Part shown: piece by piece, positions 23,336-39,844 of the stretch | Layout: every line of letters starts with the position of its first letter | Numbering within the stretch: position 1 is the first letter of the stretch | Assembly: GCF_027580225.2 (NCBI RefSeq) | Contig: NC_073352.2 | Coordinates: 64,501 to 128,500, forward strand | Direction of reading: 5' to 3' | DNA length: 64,000 bases | Source: Misgurnus anguillicaudatus | Taxonomy: Eukaryota > Chordata > Actinopteri > Cypriniformes > Cobitidae | The notes under the pieces: model-generated | Seen by the model: only the letters and a program-made list of their open reading frames with translations | Told to the model about the DNA's origin: nothing | Database searches by the model: none | Translations under genes and position numbers: made by a program

Positions 23336-23463
23336 TTTTCTTAAGTAGGTCACCCAAAAAGGAAACTTCTGTCATCATTTACACAAACAGTTTGGTTACA
23401 AACATTTCTCACAATATCTTCCTTCATGTTTATCAGAACAAAGAAATGTATGCGGTTTGTAAC
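23336..23463. repeat. cyprinid AAAGGGATAGTT-type repeat, left half (insertion site of the 15.6-kb element)
   Basis: Reads GTCACCCAAAAAGGAAACTT, then CTGTCATCATTTACAC and TTTGGTTACAAACATTTCTC; the other half (ATGACAGAATTTTCATTTTT, ending TACCCCTTTAA) resumes at 39073. A complete copy at 28483-28706 shows the two halves belong together. Confidence 0.7.
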
Positions 23464-23469
23464 AACATG
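23464..23469. repeat. target-site duplication, left copy (AACATG)
   Basis: Identical to 39067-39072 on the other side of the 15.6-kb element. Joining the flanks restores a known dispersed repeat, which supports this boundary independently. Confidence 0.88.
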
Positions 23470-25487
23470 TATGGGGTGCCAATTGTAAAGTGGCGCATAC
23501 TCAAAATATCAGCAACATTTTGTCACATTTAGCTTCAAACAATGTTTTAAAAAACTGGTATTAATTTTTGACTTTCACTTTTTAGCACATTTACAAAATT
23601 ATTTGTCAACTTAGAGATATTTTAAATAGTTAAATGTAAATATTAAATGTTACATCTAAATGTTAAATGTTAAATCTAAATATAAATGTAAAGTCTAAAT
23701 GTTAAATCTAAATCTAAATGTTAAATATAAATCTAAATGCTAAATCAAAATCTTAATATAAATGTAAAATCTAAATGTTAAATCTAAATCTAAATGTTAA
23801 ATCTAAATGTTAAATATAAATGTAAAATCTAAATGTTAAATATAAATCTAAATGTTAAATATAAATCTAAATCTAAATGTAAAATCTAAATGTTAAATAT
23901 AAATATAAATCTAAATGTTGAAATTAAATGTTTCGGGTGAAACTAAATATTTAACTAATATGCAAATTCAAAATGCCGCTAACCGGAAGTGCCAAAATAA
24001 AAGCTCGAGGTCAGTTTGTGTGTTTATAGCATCGTGTCAAATAAGTAACGAATAAAAACCATCTCATCCGAGGAAATTGACTCTTGGACATGGATTATCG
24101 TGATAATATCTACTTAAAATAATAATCACGTTTGAAGAAACTGTATTTGAGGAGTAGGCAAGTGTCATTTTTATGAAAAGTGCGGGACCTGTAGCAATAA
24201 TAGCCAGCCACGAGGGGTCTCACTTTGACTGAATTTATGTCCTCACTCATCATGTCATCACTCTGTCATGTTCGCATGCTTAATCGCCAGCAAGAGCCTG
24301 TATCCCCGCCCGCCCCGACCAGGTACGGTAACCGTTAACGTTACTGTCGTTCAAAATGTCCAACGAATCCGCTTTAGTTGAGAGCATCGGCAGAGCCGTC
24401 CTGGCGGCTATCCAAAATGTTTCAACAACGACAACAACCGCCTCCGGGCCACCACATGCCACCACACCGGTAAGTATGTTTTTTAAATCACGTAGCATTC
24501 GATTTTTTGTAAAGATTAACTTAACTAAACTGGCAAAAGAGATTTGTTACTAGCAACAAATGAACTTTATGTGTAGCACATGTGTTTCTATAAAGCGTAA
24601 AACTCACACGTTTAACGTGAGTGACGCAGTAAACCATGGTTTTATTGTGGTAAAAGTGTAGTAACCATGTTTTTTTTGTGTGTATCGATTTCCACCAGCA
24701 AAATCATGGTTTTACTACACTAACATGGTTTAACTATGGTTTTGGAAAACCATGGTTGTCAAACCCATGGTTATTTTGTGGTTACTACGGTTTACCACAG
24801 TTACCATGTTTTTTCTGGTTTTAACCGTAGTAAAACCATGGTTAATTTTCGTAAGGGTAAGATTATGTGAAGATTTGCTGAGCAGCAAAGCATGATTCAT
24901 TACATAATTTAGCATTACAGCTAACGGAGGCTACTTCTCACCTTACAAATTACACTAAATTGTTGGTCAAATGGAAATCTGCCTCTGTCCTGTGTCAGGC
25001 ATCTCTCACCTTGGCTTAACTTACCTGTTGACCTTTACTCACAAGATAAAACCATTCTCTGCTTGGCTAGAGAGAGAGAAATGCTGATGGAGGACAGCGG
25101 CAGTCATAATGATGGGGACATTTGGTTTCATGTGAATAGGGTACCAGAGTAAGAGTGCATACTGTAAAAAAGCATAACATGTGTCTCTCTTTGTTTCCGT
25201 TACCAATCTCAACCATGACCTTTGACTGCTGAGCATGTAAACATTAAAAACACATGAAATATAATGTTGCTAATATTTTGCTAATGTCTCTTCAGGTTCC
25301 CACCACTTACAATTACACACCGGGGCCAGCCACACCCACCACCTCCACTGGGACATCATACCGCTCTGTATATTTGCATATTCATGTAACCTAGCTGGCT
25401 GTTTGTTGTTGTTGTTTTTATTTGTGTGGTGTAATGTTTCAGGATTAGTTCCAATCATGATTTTTTACACTATTTTACACAACACTA
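23470..25487 (+). repeat. left terminal inverted repeat, about 2.0 kb
   Basis: Pairs with 37056-39066 at high identity by eye. It contains an AAATGTTAAATCTAAAT-type array (about 23640-23930), a GC-richer promoter-like segment (about 24180-24355), exon 1 (24356-24469) and exon 2 (25296-25367) of the integrase gene, and a palindromic CCATGGTTTTACTAC repeat in intron 1 (about 24628-24845). The match ends near CTATTTTACACAACAC. Confidence 0.9.
24180..24355 (+). promoter_or_regulatory. putative integrase promoter in left TIR
   Basis: GC-richer segment ending GTTAACGTTACTGTCGTTCA before ATG 24356, with CCCCGCCCGCCCCGACC. The same sequence stands before the HECT gene start in the other arm (about 38181-38356), so both genes probably share regulation. 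No TATA box seen. Confidence 0.4.
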
Positions 25488-26981
25488 ACATGTGACAAGA
25501 TAACGTCTTTGGTATTTTGTTTATATTTTAAAACCCCTCAGGGCTCTAGCACCAGCGTTACCACACCTTTACCAGCAACAGACTTCGCTCCAGTGACCTG
25601 TCTGTCAGTAAGTACTCATTAATAATCATGTTCATATTTGTTTGATTTATTTCTCATTTACCACTCAGTAACTTCTCATCTTTTGATTGTCCATTTTATT
25701 TAAACATTCCTTAAATAAATGTATATAGTACAATCTATATTTTTCTTTAGTCAGAAAGATAATAAGTGGATGTGAATGCTCATCTGTTATAATGTCTATA
25801 ATTCTCTCTTGAATAACCCTTTTTGTTATAGCTACATTCCAAATGTCATTTTCTTTGGTGTGTTCTAGAATGACTACCAAGGAAGACATCAGATTTCCAA
25901 AGAGGAGCTTGAACATGTTCTTTCACTGAAAACCACCTTTACAGAAGCGGCATCTATTCTTTCAATCTCAAGGCCAACTTTCTACAAGTTACTGCAAGAC
26001 CATAATATCCCAACATCAAAATTTAAGAGCATCAGTGATCAACAGTTGGATCTTGAAGTGTCACACATAAAAACTGAACACCCAAATGTTGGAGAAGTGA
26101 TGCTTATGGGGCATCTCCGCTCCAAAAACATTGTGGTTCAAAGACAACGTGTAAGAGATTCACTGCGAAGAATGGACCCAATTGGTGTCCTAGCCAGGAG
26201 AAGAACAGCAATAGCTCGGCGAGTATACTCTGTCCCCCATCCAAATTTCATATGGCATGTAGATGGAAATCATAAGTTGATTAGGTGGAAATTAGTTGTT
26301 CATGGTGCCATAGACGGCTACAGTAGGATGTTGATGTTTCTTCACTGCTCCAACAATAATCGTGCTGAAACTGTTAAAGACCTCTTTACTGCAGCTGTTG
26401 GACAGTTTGGCAGACCACTGCACATCAGGACCGATCACGGAGGAGAAAACGTTCAAATTTGGGAGGACATGCATGCGAGCAGGGGGGAAGGCTCTGTATT
26501 AACAGGAAGTTCTGTACACAACCAGAGGATAGAGCGTTTTAATCGAGACTTGAACAAAAACTGCAGCCATGTTTATGCACCCATTTTTTATGAACTGGAA
26601 TCCCTGGGTATCCTAGACATTGACAATGCAACAGACCTATTTTGTCTCCATTATGTCTTTCTACCCCGAATCAACCGCACTTTGGAGGAATTCAAAGCTG
26701 GATTTAACAATCACTCTATATCATCTGAAGGAAATAGAACACCAGTTCAGCTTTTTACTCTGGACAATGATTTGCCTCATTTTCACAACCCAGAACTCTC
26801 AACAGCAGGGGTAGTTTTTTGTTCCTCACCAAACTATCAAAGAGGATTTTCCCCATTGAATGATAGGGATTTGCAAGAACTGAATGATGCCTTTAACCCT
26901 CTTCAAAATGACAACAACAATGGCAAAACATTGTTTCAGAGAACACAACAGTTTATTTTTGATAAACTCGTAAATGCGTGA
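24356..26981 (+). CDS. integrase-type transposase (IS3EU/Ginger-like), 4 exons, 454 aa
   Basis: Exons 24356-24469, 25296-25367, 25542-25607 and 25869-26981; every intron is GT-AG and every junction is phase 0, giving 454 residues without a stop. Residues 1-84 are a Ser/Thr/Pro-rich leader (MSNESALVESIGRAVLAAIQ); the first 62 come from the inverted repeat and are shared with the HECT protein. About aa 92-130 form an HTH (ISKEELEHVLSLKTTF, ILSISRPTFYKLLQDHNIP). The catalytic core has D216 (FIWHVDGNHKLIRW), D273 (HIRTDHGGENV) and E306 (SVHNQRIERFNRD), a D, D-x32-E spacing, with HGAIDGYSRM between. This fold cuts and joins transposon ends. Exon 4 alone lacks a nearby ATG, so a single-ORF caller would start it late at 26046. 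Confidence 0.9.
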
Positions 26982-28122
26982 CTACTCATAACATGGACAA
27001 CTAGGTAACACTAGCCTTTTTGTACATTCAAAAGTACACAACACAAATCTTGATGTTTTGTTGTGCTTCTTGAACTACAAGATTTAAAACCTCTTGCCAG
27101 CATAGAGATGTTTGAAAATTACATGACGGCACATACTTGATGTCAGTGTTAAAAAGGCTACAGACGCACTTTTGCATCTTTTAGTTTTCTGTCAAGTCAA
27201 AAGCAATGGGAGTGTGGATAAAAACAAGATGACTCATGTTATGTGAAAGAACAGTAAAATACTTTTTAGGGCTCTACAGATTGTCTACAGACAGTATTGA
27301 TACATAACTGATTTCCACTACATTGTTCCTGTTTTTTAAAGTACCTAAATATGCAAAGTAAAAGTACTCAATGAAGTAAAACAATACATGTCAGTGTTTT
27401 ATAATATCTTATATATTACATACATAACTATTGTATTATTATTATGTATCTCTGAGAAGATGGCTGTTCATAAGGTAAGATTTTCTTGCATTCTGCAGCT
27501 AATCCAAAAGGTTTTGTAAAGTGATTGTTTGAGGAGTGTGAATTTTTTCAACATATGAACAAATACAATCTTCAGTTTATCACAAAACATTCAACAGCAA
27601 TAAATCTAAATATGCCAGGCTTTCGATGGTGAGGAGGGGAATTAAAAATTGTAATCTGAAAAGTACTTCAAATTTCTATGGAATTATTTTAAGTAAATGT
27701 ACATAGTTTATTCCTTCACTACTGTTTCATTAAAAAAAACTGTTAATTAAATTCATCAACAATCATTGTTAAAAAAACCACACACATCACAAGGTTAAAG
27801 AAACTGCATTTGAAATTTATTATTACTGCGATGATTGATTCCATATCTTTCCAATCATACAGTACAAAATCTTACAGTATAAAAAAGGGTCAGATAGTCC
27901 TCACAGAGGTAAAAAAAAAAATTGTAAGAAAACAGGGCGAAGTGTGGGGCAAGATGGAACAACACAAGCTTAAGTATTTATTTTTTAGATTTCTTGTGTA
28001 CTGCAATTAAAACTATTGCTTTATAACATGGACAAACTATGTCCTTTATGAACAAACATGTGGAGCCCTGCACTAAACGGTGTATTACACTGCAGGGGTT
28101 CTTTAACAAATTAACTGTTTGT
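26982..28122. other. gap between the convergent genes, no gene seen
   Basis: AT-rich sequence between the integrase stop and the HECT stop. It must hold the 3' ends of both transcripts, but no distinct coding segment or repeat was recognised. Confidence 0.5.
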
Positions 28123-30900
28123 TTAAATGGTGCTGAATAAAGATCCATTCATTAGTGCTACTAGGAAGCAGTAGTTAAATTCATCATCATCAGCCATTGT
28201 TTTTGTGTTTACAAAAAGGTGAAGCTCATTTGCACAAGTGTGCGCAATGGGAAGATGTTTTTTTTCATCATGAATAAACATTAATTTAGGAGATGGATGA
28301 AAGCCAATGGCTGGGACTTTGCTGCTCCCTGTAGCAAATGCCAGGATGTGACCAGGTCTCAAAGTCTTCAGGAATGCCTCCTCACTGCTGGTTAGAGTCC
28401 TGTCCCCATATGTGTCTCTCAGCTCTTTATCTAAAAGCAAAGGGAAACAATTGTTGACTTGAGACAGTAAAATACTCAGGTTTAAAGGGATAGTTAACCC
28501 AAAAACGAAAATTCTGTCATCATATACTCATTCTCATGTTGTTACAGACCTATATAAATTTCTTTGGTCTAATGAACACAGAGCAAGATATTTTGAGAAA
28601 TGTTTGTAACCAAACTGTTCGTGGACCCCATTTACTTCCATTTTTATATAATTTTTCCATTTTAAATGTTTTCATTTAATTTTCATTTTTGGGGTATCCC
28701 TTTAAGAAAGCCTGACTCAATAAATGAATGAGTGACTAATAGATTACTGTATAGGTATTTTGGTGAAAATTTTATTCTGAAAAGCAATCAGATAACATCT
28801 CTATTCTTGTTTGTGGTACATAAACATTAGATAGGCACAGCTTCATGGGTTGTAAGAAATAAAATAAATTTGTACGTTTCCTGGATTTGTCTGGTTGTAT
28901 AATATACTGAATTACAAATAATGAGTTTGGTTCCAAAATGCAATAAATTCATTTTGACTAATTTCGGTAAAAACGTGTTTTCTATAACAAGAAAGTGACA
29001 TGATGAAAACCACTATTTTCTGTTACAAACTTTCACATAGCATCTTTAGGTTATACAAACATAAAAAAATTAAAATCCATAATTTGATTTTCAAAGATTT
29101 ATTATAAACTTATTTTTTCCACAAACTGCAATAAATCCATCAATATAACAATATATAAATGTTCATTCATCTTTGCCATGTTACATTCATTTAGTTTTTC
29201 ATTTACAACTGATTTAAACGTTTAAATAAACATTGATGACATTAACAAAAACACTTTTTCATATTAAGAACACTCATTGCTTGCTTGGGATGTCGTCGTT
29301 TAACTTTTTTGCCAGCCATCAGCTGTAAAATGTTTGGTCCTGCTCGATTTTCGTTGGCTTTGCGTAAAATAAAAGTTTTTATAAGATCCCCTGGGGTCAA
29401 TGTGTTAGCATGAGAGACCTTGATGCTGTCGGGCGAACAAGCAACCGGCATTTTTCGTCTCCTAATACTTTACGTGAGAGGCACTTGGATGTTGATGGCT
29501 TACATTTCTTCCCCTCCACAGAAAACCAAAACCGGTTTAGCAATGCCATTAAGGTATTATTTTGGTTTGTTTGTTTGTTAATCACAAAGTACAAAGTAGA
29601 TGAGGAAAACTAGGATTCCGTGTACTCAACGCGCCACCATTATTTGTTTACAATGTGTGGAATGGTGCGCTGTAATTTGTGGAGCGGATTTATTACATTC
29701 TGTAGAAAAGGGGAAGTGGCGTTTATTACGTTTTGGGAAAAAAGATGACAGAATAACACGACGGATATTGGATTTTGCGTAAAATTAGGCATTTACTTTT
29801 AGAAACTGATGGTACTTACTTTCAACACATTGGAGAAACTCCCTAAATTTGATCACTATCAACTCCTCCTTAGCTCTTCTGTTGCTCCCCATTACGGAGT
29901 AGCTTGGTTTGAGAATACCAGCTACATAATCAGCTTCTTGACATTTGTCCTCTGCTGGTATGTCAAGTAGCACACGCAAGCTGGGGTTCTCTCTCAGGAG
30001 TGATAAAACCTGGAGGGAATTCAACACCATTAATGAAAGGCCATAAAGATAATCAAAGACGATACAGAACTGTGAGGTAAATCTTACTCCATAGTGGGAC
30101 AAGCCATCAATGAGTTGATCAAGACAGCTCTGCCGTTGCACAACAGTATGGTATAAAACTGCATTTTTCACAAACACATCTCTGTTGGCCATGGTGACTA
30201 CAAGTGGAAGCCCCTCTACTTGATATCGCCATGAGTCACAACAGCTGACTGCCTTCTCCAAATCATCCTGCAAGGTTGCATCTTGAACCTAAATATTACA
30301 GATGAAATGTTATTTTTTCAAATTACTGCATTTAACCAACAACATTTACAGAAGTACTATGTAGACTGTGCTTTTCCCTTAATAGTTACCTATGACAAGA
30401 AAAGTTTGCATTTTTAGTTATTTGTTTGGTAATATGAAATCAAAATTATTTTGATAATGCATTCCACCAAAATAAAAGTAACAGCTTTTTTGAATATTCC
30501 ACAGTAGTACAAAGGCTTACTACAATAGTCTTCAGATCATAACATTGTGCATTACCTTATTGAGGTTCTCCCTTAAATCAGGGTCACCTATATCATCAGG
30601 TGACACATGAACTTGAAGGATGTCCCCAAACACAATGTAGTCCACTACACTTGGAGACAGGAATGCAGGTGTTTCACCCCCTTCCACTATTATTGTAGAC
30701 ATCATCCTGCCAATGGTTCGATACACTCCGTTTTGCAAGTGGAGCATGTTCAGTCTTGGTGTGCATCCATTTGGTGTGCCTGAAATATTAAATAAGATAA
30801 GCAGCACATTCTGTATTATTTTCTCTGGGATTTACAAAACAATATTTGTGGTCAGGTAGCTAAATAAATAATTATATATCTATATATCTATATATCTATA

Positions 30901-30933
<33 letters not shown>

Positions 30934-33900
30934 AAATAAAAAACCTTCAAAAGCTCCACTGTCCTGGAAGATAGCCTTCACCAGTAAGCGGAAAAACTCT
31001 CGTCTGGGACCCCCAAGGTCAGCAGCATCTTCCACAGCATCATGTTCATCGCTTGTAAATGTGACATAGAGCTTGTCACAGCTTTCTGCAAAACTGTGTC
31101 TCTTAAACACACGTAAGGCTGTGGTCCAAACATTGGCTCGGCTGATATAGATCTGTCTTGTTCCCGATGTAATAACTCTCTCACTATGAGCTTGTAGAAG
31201 ACCTGCAATTTCTTCTTTGCTCAGCATTTCAGATGACCTATATTAAAAATGACAAAGATAAATAGACCTTTGACTATCTGTGCATTTACTCCACTATCAC
31301 CTTCAGTGCACAATGACATAACTGTTCAATGTTGTTTGCAATGTTTACACTGGTGTAAACAAGATATTTATTGTAATAAAAAATTACTTGTAATGCTTAC
31401 TTTAAAGTATTAACAGCAGGTCCATCAAACTCTTCTAGTAGACTACGCTGAATAGCCTCTTCAAGAGCCTCATCTTCCTCCAGAAAAACAGGGCTGAGCA
31501 AATGGACAGCAGGGACAGCAAAAAATTAAGCAGAGAGAAAGAGAGAGAGAAATAGAGAGAGGGAGAGATAGAGAGAAAGCGAGAGATAGACAGAGCGAGA
31601 GATAGAGAGAGAGAGAGCGAAGAAAGAGAGCAAGAGTGAGCGAAAGAGAGCAAGAGTGAGCGAAAGAGAGATAGAGAGCGAAAGAGAGATAGAGAGAGCA
31701 AGACTTTTATCATAATGGTTCATAATGTAAACGGACCAACATCTACACTGCTGTATTTCTATGAAGCCTAAACAATATATTACACAAAGTCTGCCACATT
31801 ATAAGGAAACACTTGTCTCAGGTTCTCTGCCTGGCCCTGACTTTCAGTTTCTTGAGTGCTGCTCTCTGTCTCCTGCCTTCTGGCCTCACTTTCCCTCTGT
31901 GATGAAGGCACTGTACTCAGCACTGCATAAAGAAAAGGAGGTTAAAAGGAAATATTTTTGTAATGATGTTAATCTCATTTTATCTAACTTAACCATAATT
32001 CCATTTTTAATTGTTTTTTCTTTAAAAGAAATTGAAAAGGCAGCCTAAAAGAATTAAGACATCCAATCCAACTACAGTATACAGGTTGCTTACAGTGATC
32101 CATTTGAGGCTGACCATAAAAATTAAATAAAAGAACTGATGCCTAAATTCTGTCAGGTTGGCTTTTATTAAGCTTTGGTCACACTACACGACTTTCAAAG
32201 TCTTAAAGGATTAGTTCACCTTAAAATGAAAAATTCCTAATAATTCACACACCACAATGCCATCCAAGATATCCATGTCTTTCTTTTCTCAGTGGAAGAG
32301 AAATTAAGTTTTTTGAGGAAAACGTTTCTGGGTTTTTCTTCACAGAATGGGCTCAAATGGTTACCATAGTTTTTCAAGTCCAAATCAATGAAGTTTCAAA
32401 AGTCTTTGAAGTGCTTTAACTTCAATCTGCACAATCCAAGTTGAGGATGAGGGGCTAATCTAGCGAAACGATCGTTCATTTTATAAAACAAATAAAAAAT
32501 ATATACTTTTTATACAACTGTTTGGATTGAACACAAGCCGGAAGACTGGAATCACACATTACATTACTGTTTGTTAAAGTTCGTTAATTGCTCTCAGCTA
32601 AGCTGAAAATCAGGGCTTCAATCCTAAAAACGTGTGAACTTAACTTCTGCAGTAAAAAGCAGTAATTACTGAGTTGTCAAGGTCAAGGGTATCGTCGCTG
32701 TCCGATGAAACTCGCGTATGTCCATTTTGACGATTTTTAGATTTTTCGACAGATTGAATGTCCAGGTTCATTTCCGTATACAGTATGCGTCACATACCTA
32801 AATGGCCAATGAAAAGTTGTGAAATCATGTCATCTGATTTTCACGTATATCCATTTGGTGTCAAAGCTGTCAATCACGCCGCATATCTTCCGCCTGTGAA
32901 GCATCTCGCAGGTCTCGTAAAGTTTCATCGAAGCTCAGCACTGGATATAGCCGAATAAACATGACAATGGCTTTCCTTCATCGAGGTAAACGTTTCCCCC
33001 GGATGCCAGACGAACATCTAGGAGTGACTTAATTACGGTAGGACTGTGCAAACAAAGTATCTGTCTAGCATTGGTGTTATTTACGCTGGGGACATCCCAC
33101 CGCTTTTTGAAAGCATTTGGTTAAAATGTTCTGAAAAATCAAGCGATGCTTAAGACTGGTTTTGTGGTCTAGTGTCACATATGTTGCGTTGTATGCTTAT
33201 GGTGTGTTTTCTTGTACATATGTAATGAAATTCATTGTAATCATTTATTAAACACGCTGCTGTTTTCTACGGTATGGTGCTGCACTGTTCGGTGGAGCTG
33301 GTGTTGCAGGGACTGTTACATGTGTGCAGTCGACATTGTTGAGGGTTTTATGCTGAGTATTTTTTTGTTGTTGACTAGCCTACACTATGCCCATTTTTGA
33401 TGCGCGTTATTCAATATTTTTCCCGTCCTGCAGTAATGTTTTTATCAGATCTTTTGTCCCCACAACTTTTCTACACAAACTGATGCCCCTGTTGTGTAGC
33501 ATTACCATGTCAGTGTATTGATTCATTGTCCCTTCATAGTTTGCAAGAGACATTTAATAAATTTATACTTAGTTAAATACGCTTAGTTTATTTAATATTA
33601 AGACGTAGGCTATTTAATAAACTGAGCGTATTCATCTGTCAATACGAAACGCGACTTGGCCATTCTAATTAATGATCGGAAGAATGCGTATCGATCACAG
33701 TTACTGTAAAATATGCACGTATGTCCATTTAAACTCAATTTTGGTCAAATGTGGATTATATCTTTACACTGGCAAGAATATGGTTACATGTAAAGATGCC
33801 GTACCAAGTATGACAACGCTACATTCAACTGCTTTTGATATACGGTGTTTTTTCACTTCCTGAAAAGTAACCGTTTTGGACATACGTGAGTTTCATCGGG

Positions 33901-35983
33901 CAGCGACGGTATACTTATTAATCACTAGAGGTGTGACGAGATCTGGTGCGACGTGGAGGTGAAATGCTGCCATTTCTCAAATAAAAGACTGTATCCTTCT
34001 GAGGTCGCATGAGAGTCTTATTAGAGACTATTAACAATTATAAAGTTTACTAATTATTAAGTTAATTGCAAATTGTTGTAATATGCATATGACTTGCAAA
34101 TGTAATGCTCAGTTAACTGAAATAAACCTTGATGATGTATGTAGCCTGCATATGCGACCTCTGGAAGATGCAGCTTTCTGTTTGAACCTTTTACAGTGCA
34201 TGCATTATATTCTTTCTTTTACTGCATGTGCTTTTTTATTTAGGTTTCCAATAATGTTCGTTTGGGAACTGGTATAAAATCTGAGGTGTGTTTTTCTGTT
34301 CATCAGTGTCAGAAGTGTCTCAGCAGATTAAACCCTCACACAGAGTTCACATGAATGTCTGCATTGTTACGGCCGTGTTTTGTATTTATTATTATTTTGT
34401 GTGGTATGTTGTATTGATTTGGTTTATCCTTTTACCGAGGAGAAGCTCCGCCCTCATGCACCTGCAGCTCATGATGAAGTTTGGGGTGGAGATAAAAGGA
34501 GAGGGTGACTGCGTGAGAAGGCTGAGTTCCCTATGCTGTTTCCATCTGAACTCCAGTCACCCGGTCGCCACTGCCACTGTCTTTAGCTCTACGTGAGCGT
34601 GGCGCACACTTGAGGGGAAGCTTTATTGGTCCCGCTGCTTTGACAAGAGCTCCGTGTGCGTCCTGAGATTTCGCTGACGCTGAAAAACTGTGTATTTATT
34701 TAATTTTTGGCTGTTCTATGTTTTTGGTTTTTGTCAAATTGTGTGTGAAAGTCTTTCGTCCGCAACCCTTACAAGTAGTTGCCCGTGGCACGTGAGTGCA
34801 ACGGCATTTAATAAATATTTAAATGGTGCTTTGACTCGAGTGTCCTTTTTTATGTTGCGTGAACCCCACTACCCTTACGAGCAACTTTGAGGGGTTCGTA
34901 ACAGCATGTTCTTGCTCAAGAAGGACAGTGGCTGTATCATTTCTATTGTAAAGAATTGGACAAATATTAAAGATTCAAATGGATTTAAACATTGTTTGGC
35001 TAAAAATGAATGTTTTCCTTCTAAAGTGAAAGTGAAGATAGCATCCGCGAGACGAGTACACTATTGCCCCCTGCAGGCATTTGTTATAATACATAATGCA
35101 GGTTTATTACATAGGCTACAAATATAATGTTGTTTAATGTAACTTGGTTTTGATACTTAATTTGAACCAAATTATTATTGCATCTTCATTATTATGTAAT
35201 TTTAAAGGCTATTGTTCACTTGGGTCTTTTTTGATTACCAAAAAATATCAAATTCAGAGAGAGCAGGGCTGGTTGGGCCAAGGGTTAGTTGGCACACAGT
35301 TCAATTACAGTACACTAAAGGGCCCTGCCACAAAAATCTAACATTAACATGACTGCCCTCTTGACCTGAACACACCCATTTACTAAAATCATTGAATAGT
35401 CACTAACTGTTGAGGTGTGGATAGCTTCTATATTTTACAGTGTCAAAACAAAAACAGTTCCCCACACTAAATACATTTAAGAGCTATGATAGATTGTTCT
35501 TGTGAACCCAATCTCGTGTCTCGTCTCGTGGATTAAGTGTCTCGTCACATCCCTATTAATCACACAAACAATGTAGTAAAGTGAAACTTGTCCTCTGCAT
35601 TTAACCCATCCCAGGAGCAGGGGCAACCATAGCACAGCGCCCTTGAACCAACTCCAGATTCTTAGCCAGTGCCTCGGTCAAGGGCACTGAGTGGATAATT
35701 AATCTAAATGTGCGCGTTTTTGATGGTGCAGGAAACCCACACAAACACGGGAGAACATGCAAACTCAACACAGAAAGGACCAGGGCTGGATAGGGGTTTG
35801 AACAGAGTTATCATACAGCCTATAGAAAATATAATATAAACATCTGCTTTAACCTACTTCTTTGATGTGATGGACTTTCTTGCAGTCTCTCATTTTCACT
35901 GCCTTGACTGTTGAGCTCACTTTCACTTGTGGAAGGTGACACTGTATGAACTAAATGACATGTTATGGACAAAAGAAGGGAAT

Positions 35984-36014
<31 letters not shown>

Positions 36015-38180
36015 TACATACATACATACATACACACACAAGAAACTGGAAGCAAAGTACTTAACATTTTTAATTAATTACCCATATCTGAATTTTGGAA
36101 TGAGCAGAATTAGAACAGATAAAAAATGTTATAAATGAATGATAAACCCATTGCATTGCTGTGAAAAAAATAACTTTTGACTGTGACTACAACCTGTTGC
36201 TAAACAACATTTCAAATTCTCAAACCCACCTCTCTTTCTCGAGCCCACAGGACTTTCAAAGTCACTATCGGAGAGTTCCTCAGGTTCCTCCTGGAGAAAA
36301 AAAAGTGATAAATAATACATCAAGCAAGTGGTAGTTAAGTATTTAACACTGAGTAAACCTAAAAAAAATTAGATGTTATTTATGTAAAGAAGCAAGATAA
36401 GCAACATAAATATTTTTACTTCTAACACATTGAAATGCTGCCCATAACTGAAACCCTGTACTGTCATGTAAACTGTTTACCTGTACAGGTTTGCTTATTG
36501 ATGCCATTATATAGAGACAAGTGGCTGAACTAATCGAGGCAACTTCTTTTCCACCCCACAGAAAACTGCTTGAGACATTTGGTTTCATTAGTCTTTTGCA
36601 TCCCTTGACTGTACTCAAATACTCGAATGGGAAAGACTGGCCCATAGACAATGCAAACGTTCTTCTGAAAATGGCAGTCATTTCTTCTTTAAGTTGTGCT
36701 TCAGACCAGTCAGATGTAAAGGAGATCTTCCCAATAAGGCCATCGCGTGCTAAATTTGCTCTCGAGTCTCCCCTTGGAATGCGGAATGTTGATGCTGACG
36801 AAAAAGGCAAGCACACAACATCTTTTGTATAGTGTTTGCAGGCTTTGTTTTTTCTGACAAAACGTGAGTGTGTAGCAGTCCTTTGATGAACTGATGGAAA
36901 GGGAACCTGAAATCAATGAAAACAGAGACACTTGTGCATTACAAGAGAGCAATTCGTTTTCGTTAATTGTGAATGCAAACTGTAGATGCAAACCAACTAA
37001 CCAACTGGTTCATTAAACTTTTTTTGTCAATAAGCAATTTATTAAATCAAAACACTGGTGTTGTGTAAAATAGTGTAAAAAATCATGATTGGAATTAATC
37101 CTGAAACACCACACAAATAAAAACAACAACAACAAACAGCCAGCTAGGTTACATGAATATGCAAATATACAGAGCGGTATGATGTCCCAGTGGAGGTGGT
37201 GGGTGTGGCTGGCCCCGGTGTGTAATTGTAAGTGGTGGGAACCTGAAGAGACATTATCAAAAAATTAGCAACATTATATATCAAGAGTTTTTAATGTTTA
37301 CATGCTCAGCAGTCAAAGGTCATGGTTGAGATTGGTAACTGAAACAAAGAGAGATACATGTTATGCTTTTTTACAGTATGCACTCTTACTCTGGTACCTT
37401 ATTCACATGAAATTAAATGTCTTTATCATTATGACTGCCGCTGTCCTCCATCAGCATTTCTCTCTCTCTAGCCAAGCAGAGAATGGTTTTATCTTGTGAG
37501 TAAAGGTCAACAGGTAAGTTAAGCCAAGGTGAGATGCCTGACACAGGACAGAGGCAGATTTCCATTTGACCAACAATTTAGTGTAATTTGTAAGGTGAGA
37601 AGTAGCCTCCGTTAGCTGTAATGCTAAATTATGTAATGAATCATGCTTTGCTGCTCAGCAAATCTTCACATAATCTTACCCTTACGAAAATTAACCATGG
37701 TTTTACTACGGTTAAAACCAGAAAAAACATGGTAACTGTGGTAAACCGTAGTAACCACAAAATAACCATGGGTTTGACAACCATGGTTTTCCAAAACCAT
37801 AGTTAAACCATGTTAGTGTAGTAAAACCATGATTTTGCTGGTGGAAATCGATACACACAAAAAAACCATGGTTACTACACTTTTACCACAATAAAACCAT
37901 GGTTTACTGCGTCACTCACGTTAAACGTGTGAGTTTTACGCTTTATAGAAACACATGTGCTACACATAAAGTTCATTTGTTGCTAGTAACAAATCTCTTT
38001 TGCCAGTTTAGTTAAGTTAATCTTTACAAAAAATCGAATGCTACGTGATTTGAAAAACATACTTACCGGTGTGGTGGCATGTGGTGGCCCGGAGGCGGTT
38101 GTTGTCGTTGTTGAAACATTTTGGATAGCCGCCAGGACGGCTCTGCCGATGCTCTCAACTAAAGCGGATTCGTTGGACAT
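28123..38180 (-). CDS. HECT E3 ubiquitin ligase with UIM (G2E3-like), transposon-borne, about 12 exons
   Basis: Proposed exons, 5' to 3': 38180-38067, 37242-37171, 36906-36481, 36290-36230, 35941-35858, 31910-31813, 31493-31401, 31237-30945, 30779-30556, 30288-30088, 30009-29820, 28430-28123. Exons 1-2 encode the same 62 residues as the integrase. Exon 3 has FRIPRGDSRANLARDGLIGK and SSSFLWGGKEVASI, a module seen in fish G2E3-like proteins. Exons 4-6 are an acidic Ser/Glu-rich linker. Exon 7 has a ubiquitin-interacting motif (EEDEALEEAIQRSLLEE). Exons 8-12 form a HECT domain: ISRANVWTTALRVF, DLGGPRREFFRLL, VYRTIGRMMSTIIVEGG, then FATGSSKVPAIGF and LPIAHTCANELHLF, whose Cys is the expected thioester site. 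All junctions are in phase except exon 6 to 7, which are off by one base; that linker is uncertain. Total about 720 aa. Confidence 0.8.
28483..28706. repeat. complete cyprinid AAAGGGATAGTT repeat inside HECT intron
   Basis: Left TTTAAAGGGATAGTTAACCC and right GGGGTATCCCTTTAAG are inverted; the inside reads ATTCTGTCATCATATACTCA and TTTGTAACCAAACTG. Same family as the insertion site of the whole transposon. Confidence 0.75.
28707..29819. other. last long HECT intron; weak minus-strand coding hint at 29242-29594
   Basis: Mostly AT-rich. Two overlapping minus-strand frames (29594-29397 and 29451-29242) have a more coding-like composition, the second with TPGDLIKTFILRKANENRA and KKVKRRHPKQ, but I recognise no family, and the HECT frame joins correctly without them. 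Possibly a decayed third gene. Confidence 0.25.
30866..30939. repeat. (TA)n and poly-T low-complexity tract
   Basis: TATATC/TATATA repeats followed by a T run, just downstream of the HECT exon ending at 30945. It replaces the usual intron start and explains the long Lys/Tyr/Ile run in translation past the donor. Confidence 0.8.
31529..31705. repeat. (GA)n-rich simple repeat
   Basis: AGAGAGAGAA/GAGCGAGAGATAGA units on the plus strand lie immediately upstream (minus sense) of the UIM exon. Long Ser/Leu frames on the minus strand here are artefacts of the repeat. Its expansion may have disturbed the exon 6-7 splice region. Confidence 0.85.
32209..32689. repeat. AAAGGATTAGTTCACC-type dispersed repeat and unassigned sequence
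   Basis: Starts TTAAAGGATTAGTTCACCTT, with CACAATGCCATCCAAGATAT and an AGTGGAAGAGAAATTAAG-type core typical of cyprinid repeats. No coding capacity. Right end not resolved. Confidence 0.5.
32690..33912. mobile_element. non-autonomous DNA element with about 50-bp TIRs
   Basis: Left TATCGTCGCTGTCCGATGAA (then ACTCGCGTATGTCC) and right GGACATACGTGAGTTTCATC (then GGGCAGCGACGGTATA) are inverted. The 1.2-kb interior has no transposase. It sits in an intron of the HECT gene, 13 bp before the next element. Confidence 0.75.
33926..35555. mobile_element. hAT element, 8-bp TSD, carrying a solo LTR
   Basis: Ends TAGAGGTGTGACGAGA and TCTCGTCACATCCCTA are inverted, flanked by TTAATCAC at 33918-33925 and 35556-35563. 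It contains the solo LTR 34365-34903; no transposase is visible in the rest. Confidence 0.88.
34365..34903. mobile_element. solo LTR, 539 bp
   Basis: Starts TGTTACGGCCGTG and ends GGGTTCGTAACA, flanked by GCAT at 34361-34364 and 34904-34907. CG-containing with no coding frame; TTTAATAAATATTT near 34807 may be the polyadenylation signal in plus orientation. A lone LTR is the usual product of recombination between the two LTRs of one element. Confidence 0.75.
35585..35800. repeat. dispersed fish repeat fragment
   Basis: CTCTGCATTTAACCCATCCC, GTCAAGGGCACTGAGTGG and GGGAGAACATGCAAACTC are hallmark phrases of a widespread fish interspersed repeat. Fragmentary, non-coding. Confidence 0.5.
35981..36040. 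repeat. (CA)n/(TACA)n microsatellite
   Basis: ACACACACAC followed by TACATACATACA units in the intron between HECT exons 4 and 5. Confidence 0.9.
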
Positions 38181-39066
38181 TTTGAACGACAGTAACGTTA
38201 ACGGTTACCGTACCTGGTCGGGGCGGGCGGGGATACAGGCTCTTGCTGGCGATTAAGCATGCGAACATGACAGAGTGATGACATGATGAGTGAGGACATA
38301 AATTCGGTCAAAGTGAGACCCCTCGTGGCTGGCTATTATTGCTACAGGTCCCGCACTTTTCATAAAAATGACACTTGACTACTCCTCAAATACAGTTTCT
38401 TCAAACGTGATTATTATTTTAAGTAGTTATTATCACGATAATCCATGTCCAAGAGTCAATTTCCTCGGATGAGATGGTTTTTATTCGTTACTTATTTGAC
38501 ACGATGCTGTGGACGCGCGAACTGACCTCGAGCTTTTGTTTTGGCGCTTCCGGTTGGCGGCATTTTGAATTTGCATGTTGGTTGGATGTTTAGTTTCACC
38601 CGAAACATTTAATTTCAACATTTAGATTTATATTTATATTTAACATTTAGATTTTACATTTAGATTTAGATTTATATTTAACATTTAGATTTATATTTAA
38701 CATTTAGATTTTACATTTATATTTAACATTTAGATTTAACATTTAGATTTAGATTTAACATTTAGATTTTACATTTATATTAAGATTTTGATTTAGCATT
38801 TAGATTTATATTTAACATTTAGATTTAGATTTAACATTTAGACTTTACATTTATATTTAGATTTAACATTTAACATTTAGATGTAACATTTAATATTTAC
38901 ATTTAACTATTTAAAATATCTCTAAGTTGACAAATAATTTTGTAAATGTGCTAAAAAGTGAAAGTCAAAAATTAATACCAGTTTTTTAAAACATTGTTTG
39001 AAGCTAAATGTGACAAAATGTTGCTGATATTTTGAGTATGCGCCACTTTACAATTGGCACCCCATA
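37056..39066 (-). repeat. right terminal inverted repeat, about 2.0 kb
   Basis: Reverse complement of 23470-25487. It supplies the promoter-like segment, exon 1 (38067-38180) and exon 2 (37171-37242) of the HECT gene. Exons 1 and 2 are identical in the two arms; scattered differences are seen outside them, e.g. around 38505-38520 against 24010-24030. Confidence 0.9.
38181..38356 (-). promoter_or_regulatory. putative HECT-gene promoter in right TIR
   Basis: Mirror copy of 24180-24355 directly upstream of ATG 38180 on the minus strand. Nearly identical sequence implies the same transcription-factor input as the integrase gene. Confidence 0.4.
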
Positions 39067-39072
39067 AACATG
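39067..39072. repeat. target-site duplication, right copy (AACATG)
   Basis: Matches 23464-23469. Immediately followed by the rest of the interrupted cyprinid repeat (about 39073-39125). Confidence 0.88.
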
Positions 39073-39125
39073 AGTGTGTAAATAATGACAGAATTTTCAT
39101 TTTTGAGTGAACTACCCCTTTAACA

Positions 39126-39844
39126 TTTTTATACCCAGGGGTAAAAGAAATGTATGTTAAACATTTTTATTTTGTCTTTTTTTTGTTACTGCTACTTTCA
39201 ACAAGACTAATTATTCAGCCAAGCTTATTTAGTACTTTAAAAAATGAAGGGCTTTTATGGGTTTTTAGACCCAGATATGTGCTCACAGTTCGCCCATAAA
39301 ATGCCCAGTGGTCCCACAATTTTCCTGCAGTATGCCCACACTTTGTCCATTGTGCCCACATTTTTCCCACGTATTTGTATTTAAATACATTTTTTCACAC
39401 AGCATTTTGTATTTGTGATATCTGTGAATTTGTGATAGTATTTTGTATTTGAATTTTAAAACAATTCCATATATGCATGTATGCCAATCTCAGATCATAT
39501 GCATGTGAAAGGCAGTTTCTGGTATAAATAGCAGAACACAAAAGGTTTTCTGTGTCATTAGAAATGCAGTCAAAAAGTGGGACAACAAGGATAACTGATC
39601 ATGAAGGTAAGAACCTTAACCATGCCAGGTGAGGGATATATTATGGCTGAAAAAAACAAACCAATTAATGAAATATTCATGTCATATGTGTATTTACCAT
39701 TTAAATTCGTATTACATTTTTGTTAGCTGTCCTATTTTGAGATATGTATTAGCCTAATATTAATAGTATAATTAATATTATATAATACATTCTTGAAACG
39801 AGGTTAAACCCTTGGAAAGACATAGGAAATAATATAGAAATTTA
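39126..39844. other. no gene established; TATA-box and mini-exon candidate
   Basis: At 39521-39530 a TATAAATAG-type box precedes ATG 39565, which opens a 15-codon frame (MQSKSGTTRITDHE) ending in a strong donor, GGTAAGAAC. This could be the first exon of an unrecognised gene or of a decayed element; no continuation was found. Confidence 0.2.

Follow-up and report, generated by a model that had tools for sequence, protein, structure and literature searches.

Does a DNA transposon in the genome of a loach encode a ubiquitin ligase of its own, or has a ligase gene been caught by chance between its ends? The question is raised by a 64,000-nucleotide stretch of Misgurnus anguillicaudatus DNA (contig NC_073352.2, positions 64,501 to 128,500; C16:64501-128500 in the 1.12-Gb genome searched), hereafter the window, in which a DNA transposon of 15,597 bp (window positions 23470-39066) carries the gene of an integrase-type transposase and the gene of a HECT-type E3 ubiquitin ligase. 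The evidence supports the view that the HECT gene truly belongs to the element as its second gene and is not a chance passenger, because both genes lie between the same termini in the window and in copies at C5 and C17, because convergent pairs of the two genes recur elsewhere in the genome, and because the last HECT exon is under selection. What the ligase may do for the element is a separate question, taken up after the evidence for its membership.

The outer ends of the element read TATGGGGTGCC, starting at 23470, and GGCACCCCATA, finishing at 39066. They belong to long inverted repeats, whose arms (23470-25475 and 37062-39066) are identical at 1966 of 1999 aligned bases (98%), far above chance. 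An uninterrupted insertion site with a single AACATG is preserved in a paralogous flank repeat (28623-28482, 84% identical). The element is inserted in a member of this repeat family (23350-23469 and 39073-39140), and the other member (28482-28623) lies inside the last HECT intron. The TAAATCTAAATGTTAAATA array in the arms may hold binding sites for the transposase. The features of the ends are as follows.

23464..23469 (left) and 39067-39072 (right), no strand: target-site duplication AACATG
23470..25475, + strand: left terminal inverted repeat with the TATGGGGTGCC end; contains transposase exons 1-2
23631..23932, no strand: degenerate subterminal TAAATCTAAATGTTAAATA array, with a mirror copy in the right arm
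37062..39066, - strand: right terminal inverted repeat; contains HECT exons 1-2

The transposase gene has four exons, all introns GT-AG, and a complete open reading frame of 454 residues. Exon 4 matches the Pfam families rva_4 (E 1.9e-70) and rve (1.1e-9) and, weakly, a helix-turn-helix. D216, D273 and E306 form a putative DDE triad assigned by motif, in which 32 residues separate the second D from the E. For P0046, a relative from Merluccius, the modelled structure (mean predicted local distance difference test score, pLDDT, 70.5) has an integrase fold; it resembles intasomes of retroviruses and transposases of the IstA type, the best Foldseek match having E 1e-5.

24356..24469, + strand: transposase exon 1 (leader)
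25296..25367, + strand: transposase exon 2 (leader)
25542..25607, + strand: transposase exon 3
25869..26981, + strand: transposase exon 4, helix-turn-helix-like region and integrase core
26262-26264, 26433-26435 and 26532-26534, + strand: codons of the putative catalytic D, D and E in exon 4

The HECT gene runs toward the transposase gene, with the two stop codons 1.1 kb apart. Its 12 exons, again with GT-AG introns throughout, encode 734 residues in a frame free of stops; the borders were fixed from splice signals, once single exons had been matched in Pfam but ahead of the search for homologues. That search returned an annotated protein of M. anguillicaudatus that is also 734 residues long and is 99% identical across 100% of the model.

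38067..38180, - strand: HECT exon 1 (leader as in transposase exon 1)
37171..37242, - strand: HECT exon 2 (leader as in transposase exon 2)
36481..36906, - strand: HECT exon 3, no Pfam match
36230..36290, - strand: HECT exon 4
35858..35941, - strand: HECT exon 5
31784..31922, - strand: HECT exon 6
31401..31493, - strand: HECT exon 7, with the ubiquitin-interacting motif at 31480-31430
30945..31237, - strand: HECT exon 8, N-lobe, GGPRREFF
30556..30779, - strand: HECT exon 9
30088..30288, - strand: HECT exon 10
29820..30009, - strand: HECT exon 11
28123..28430, - strand: HECT exon 12, C-lobe, with the codon of the catalytic Cys698 at 28236-28234

Both lobes of the HECT domain are present, together with the catalytic cysteine in the context AHTCANEL. 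The N-lobe piece (GGPRREFF) and the C-lobe piece (HTC cysteine) each align to AREL1. The model of the whole protein is weak (mean pLDDT 43) and usable only in parts of the HECT domain; the 50 matches listed in its structure comparison are all named as HECT ligases. The sequence EEDEALEEAIQRSLLEE resembles the consensus of a ubiquitin-interacting motif (UIM); its residues E311, A312, S316 and L317 (P0001 numbering) are invariant in an alignment of 29 sequences. The AACATG duplications, the inverted ends with their repeats of about 2.0 kb, the complete four-exon integrase with its D, D and E, and the convergent gene with a UIM, a HECT domain and AHTCANEL had all been described in the initial annotation, made from the letters alone, and all were recovered here.

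Copies with the same termini bear directly on whether the ligase belongs to the element. A search with 531 bases of the ends located both ends in the window and at C5 and C17, whereas C21 gave a single end. Both genes lie between these termini in the C5 copy (98.4% over its length) and in the C17 copy. The broken C21 copy retains HECT exons 1-8 and 12, and transposase exons 3-4 were not seen there in 37.5 kb. None of the four copies keeps the transposase while losing the HECT gene. As to non-autonomous copies made of ends only, 48 of the 55 matches in this search were partial and lay mostly within the repetitive subterminal array. Differences from the window copy, leader exons set aside, are fewer in HECT exons than in internal non-coding sequence at C5 (5/2019 vs 64/8427; Fisher P 0.009), C17 (7/2019 vs 70/7899; P 0.010) and C21 (7/1399 vs 90/5337; P 0.0004).

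More distant copies also bear on the association. When the genome was searched with transposase exon 4, 115 matches were returned (111 scored, of 351 candidates); the HECT C-lobe gave 18, which fall at 17 places once two overlapping rows at C21 are merged. At ten of these 17 places a transposase match is listed no more than 8 kb away, where 0.025 would be expected, and all ten pairs are convergent. With the four near-identical copies set aside, 7 of 13 places are still paired, although only a fraction of 0.0015 of the genome lies so near a transposase match (binomial P 3e-17). A profile search of the flanks adds pairs at C7, at C12 (0.52, 2.92 and 5.14 Mb) and, weakly, at C14 (1.385 Mb). When the 5 kb downstream of eight divergent transposase matches were searched, HECT sequence was found in four (one weak) and none in the other four; for one of the latter, at C14 1.20 Mb, a HECT match lies just past the stretch. 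The transposases of the divergent pairs are 36-50% identical to that of the window over the best matched part. This recurrence of the pairing in distantly related fish copies probably makes the ligase part of how the element works.

These counts also bear on whether the HECT genes are host genes, beside which transposons of this lineage (IS3EU, see below) inserted by chance. The seven remaining C-lobe places, namely the broken C21 copy and six for which no transposase match is listed at 8 kb or less, would suit such genes, but the invariably convergent arrangement of the nearby pairs would not, and the HECT gene lies between the termini and has been copied with them. HECT-bearing copies with shared termini contradict this explanation, to which we give a negligible probability.

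Selection was assessed against a divergent copy at C10, 58% identical in protein. The proportions of synonymous and nonsynonymous differences in HECT exon 12 are pS 0.65 and pN 0.23, a pN/pS of 0.36 (bootstrap 0.25-0.50), which is a rough value, since synonymous divergence (dS) is near saturation; the comparison spans 101 codons of this single exon. Three pieces of the transposase give 0.36, 0.27 and 0.18. The last HECT exon is thus under purifying selection. The initial annotation had set two tests beforehand for its proposal of a genuine second gene, whether copies with the same termini carry both genes and whether the HECT gene shows purifying selection between copies, and the proposal passes both. 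Selection is seen in the last exon against C10; the near-identical copies give no such signal.

A last possibility of this kind is a single capture of a host G2E3-like gene, which has since ridden along as a passenger. Many relatives carry the NCBI name G2/M phase-specific E3 ubiquitin-protein ligase-like, and a passenger would also suit the lack of a selection signal among near-identical copies. A single capture does not fit the repetition of the convergent pair in divergent copies, the purifying selection against C10, or the domain content: no PHD or RING was found by Pfam in the three members scanned (P0001 and P0015, with HECT alone, and P0012, with a PI3K_rbd match below the cutoff in addition). 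The label G2E3-like, used in the initial annotation, therefore stands as an annotation name and not as a description of domains. We consider such a capture very improbable. The chance-passenger reading was rejected on the copies with shared termini, the convergent association and the selection on the last exon.

Several observations weigh on the other side and should be set against the support for a genuine second gene. Of the four copies located by their termini, only that of the window has both genes whole. A deletion of 25 nucleotides in the HECT-side leader exon is common to C5 and C17, and at C17 the HECT gene lacks its start codon and has a stop at codon 221, while the transposase-side leader is interrupted. 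Although their ends are complete, no matching 6-bp duplication flanks the copies at C5 (G000:C5:11647580-11663128) or C17 (G000:C17:10943973-10964702), as if they had recombined or been rearranged through their repeats. Near-identical copies show no deficit of nonsynonymous changes among the few found (four nonsynonymous and one synonymous in HECT between the window and C5), a comparison that is uninformative, with at most five changes of a kind per pair and leader exons 1-2 excluded from the ratio of nonsynonymous to synonymous rates (dN/dS). The C10 transposase used above has internal stops. Three of the eight divergent transposase matches (L050, L056 and L057) have no HECT match in the 5 kb downstream or in the genome search. 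Nor were full inverted repeats or leader exons found in 19.5 kb at the divergent C22 copy, or flanking repeats in eight stretches, some of only 3.5 kb. An intact HECT gene does exist elsewhere in the loach, as the annotated 734-residue protein indicates.

The placement of the element follows from its termini, its duplication and its domain marks. IS3EU elements are described as having TAYGG..CCRTA termini, a 6-bp duplication and a DDE transposase without an HHCC finger (PMC10045372, PMC12730594). The window copy has TATGG..CCATA at 23470 and 39066 and the 6-bp duplication AACATG, with a paralogous empty site. No HHCC zinc finger was found by Pfam in exon 4 to E 1 or in four full-length relatives to E 0.1; Ginger1, defined by that finger (PMC10045372), was rejected on this ground. 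The element is thus very likely a two-gene cut-and-paste transposon of the IS3EU lineage in ray-finned fish. It shares with IS3EU/GingerRoot the form of the termini, the duplication and the integrase-type DDE transposase lacking the HHCC finger; it differs from IS3EU, as far as the available portions of the published descriptions go, in its convergent HECT gene and in leader exons that the two genes have in common because they lie in the 2-kb inverted repeats.

Other two-enzyme systems offer partial parallels. Fungal TET+ IS3EU elements carry an alpha-kinase gene opposite the transposase and a TET/JBP dioxygenase between them (PMC12730594). They resemble the loach element in having a second enzyme gene in opposite orientation, and differ in that the enzymes are a kinase and a dioxygenase; the part of that account available describes no ligase or shared leader. 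RAG1-RAG2-type Transib elements likewise combine a transposase with a second protein, and vertebrate RAG1 has a RING with ubiquitin ligase activity (PMC4411706); the RING there lies within the RAG1 protein, with no separate HECT gene, and the transposase is of another superfamily. KolobokP, a DNA transposon of animals, also has two enzymes and long terminal repeats, but its repeats are direct, it encodes a His-Me finger nuclease and its transposase superfamily is another (PMC9587614). The HECT protein itself shares with G2E3 and AREL1 a bilobal HECT domain and the HTC cysteine context, AREL1 being the best profile match among solved structures. Tongue sole G2E3 is described with PHD, RING and HECT (PMC11394658), whereas the loach protein carries a UIM-like motif and begins with the leader of the transposon, and orthology to G2E3 was ruled out on domains. 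A literature search that covered few subscription journals found no transposon-borne HECT ligase and no repeat-encoded shared leader.

That leader is new here and was not reported in the initial annotation. The first 62 residues of the loach transposase and ligase are identical (62/62), because exons 1-2 of both genes sit in the inverted repeats. Ligase and transposase leaders also match in Merluccius polli (P0012 vs P0046, 57/58) and Epinephelus coioides (P0031 vs P0049, 34/35), and across Percidae, where a loach-like leader is found (Perca HECT P0004 vs Sander transposase P0037, 58/61). The two Merluccius proteins are each on a contig of 169,433 bases, which suggests that they share one. Between loach and Merluccius or Epinephelus, the leaders are only 29-38% identical (aligned-residue counts 10/35 to 22/44), while the remainder of both proteins is 60-67% identical. 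Leaders that match within an element and diverge between families form the pattern that repeat-encoded exons kept alike would give, and the repeats would presumably be homogenized by gene conversion or transposition. A caution is that the leaders of Merluccius and Epinephelus share 23 of 35 residues (66%), so that the two are related and not fully independent cases. Of 27 leader rows, 24 contain an I-x-R-x-V/I core (missing in P0021, P0034 and coral P0070), and the leader is modelled, with low confidence, as a short helix in both proteins.

A mechanism may be proposed on these grounds. DDE integrases act by cut and paste, and their staggered joining yields the 6-bp duplication. Each inverted repeat would provide the start, and presumably the promoter, of one gene, the left that of the transposase and the right that of the ligase. 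The UIM would let the ligase bind ubiquitin, and the shared leader would bring it to the transposase or its partners through contact of like with like. There the ligase may ubiquitinate the transposase or the transpososome, with remodelling after strand transfer or limitation of dose as the outcome. Judged from sequence, such a leader-mediated meeting and ubiquitination have a little less than an even chance of being correct. A further step, taken more tentatively, is that the repeats tag transposase and ligase alike and so create a self-addressed ubiquitin system, in which the ligase would find the transposase of its own element and form, in every family, a co-evolving private regulator that ignores relatives.

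It is about as probable, again just under even, that the HECT gene truly belongs to the element but its shared leader is only a by-product of long repeats that carry a duplicated promoter and first exons, with no coupling between the proteins. The long repeats of one element are expected to be alike (98% here), so exons inside them are shared automatically. The coral transposase P0070 starts with a leader that looks similar by eye, and the leader may serve the transposase alone; at C5 a frameshift affects the leader on the HECT side, and the one on the transposase side is whole. A by-product would not be expected, however, to stay open and in phase with both genes despite drift as far as that between loach and Merluccius or Epinephelus, or to keep its core in most leader rows. 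The ligase could instead be directed at host silencing, repair or innate-immune proteins and not at the transposase. Such a target has precedent in other eukaryotic transposons that carry enzymes acting on host marks, such as the dioxygenase and alpha-kinase of fungal IS3EU (PMC12730594), but nothing in the leader shared with the transposase points to it, and we regard it as unlikely.

The family extends well beyond the loach. HECT relatives numbered 33 and 56 in two listings, with about 8,000 candidates scored; the named ones listed are from ray-finned fish, save one cluster labelled both Oreochromis and Mustela. The 120 transposase relatives listed, of 1208, include coral, crinoid, ribbon-worm and ascidian proteins. 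In viral contigs, five pattern matches to IS3EU relatives were obtained and none was confirmed. The loach proteins are 86-92% identical to those of percid elements (P0007, P0037 of Sander and P0004 of Perca), a high value for fish so far apart, and horizontal transfer between the two lineages is possible. P0018 of Merluccius polli, annotated as 'Zinc finger MYM-type protein 1', joins this HECT protein to a PF14291 domain, and is probably a chimeric gene model spanning a nested transposon. In Cottus, an unclassified repeat that matches G2E3 by blastx has been mentioned (PMC5638112) and is perhaps an element of the same kind.

Two further features of the window copy were observed. In the right arm, 80 bp (38509-38588) hold 14 A-to-G changes on the + strand that are private to this arm, six other arms keeping A. 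Fourteen of the 25 adenines are changed; none of these 14 is preceded by G, against 3 of the 11 unchanged (Fisher P 0.07). The cluster looks like ADAR-type hyperediting fixed in DNA. In HECT intron 5, about 540 bp (34365-34903) are present in the window and C5 copies and missing from the C17 and C21 alignments, and are probably a nested insertion.

If the ligase is indeed a gene of the element, a HECT ubiquitin ligase joins the helper enzymes known to be encoded by transposons, and many 'G2/M phase-specific E3 ligase-like' annotations in fish could be transposon genes. The element also shows that long inverted repeats can lend one coding leader to two genes and so keep both proteins matched. 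It is a system in which to test whether and how transposons use ubiquitin to regulate their transposase or their host.

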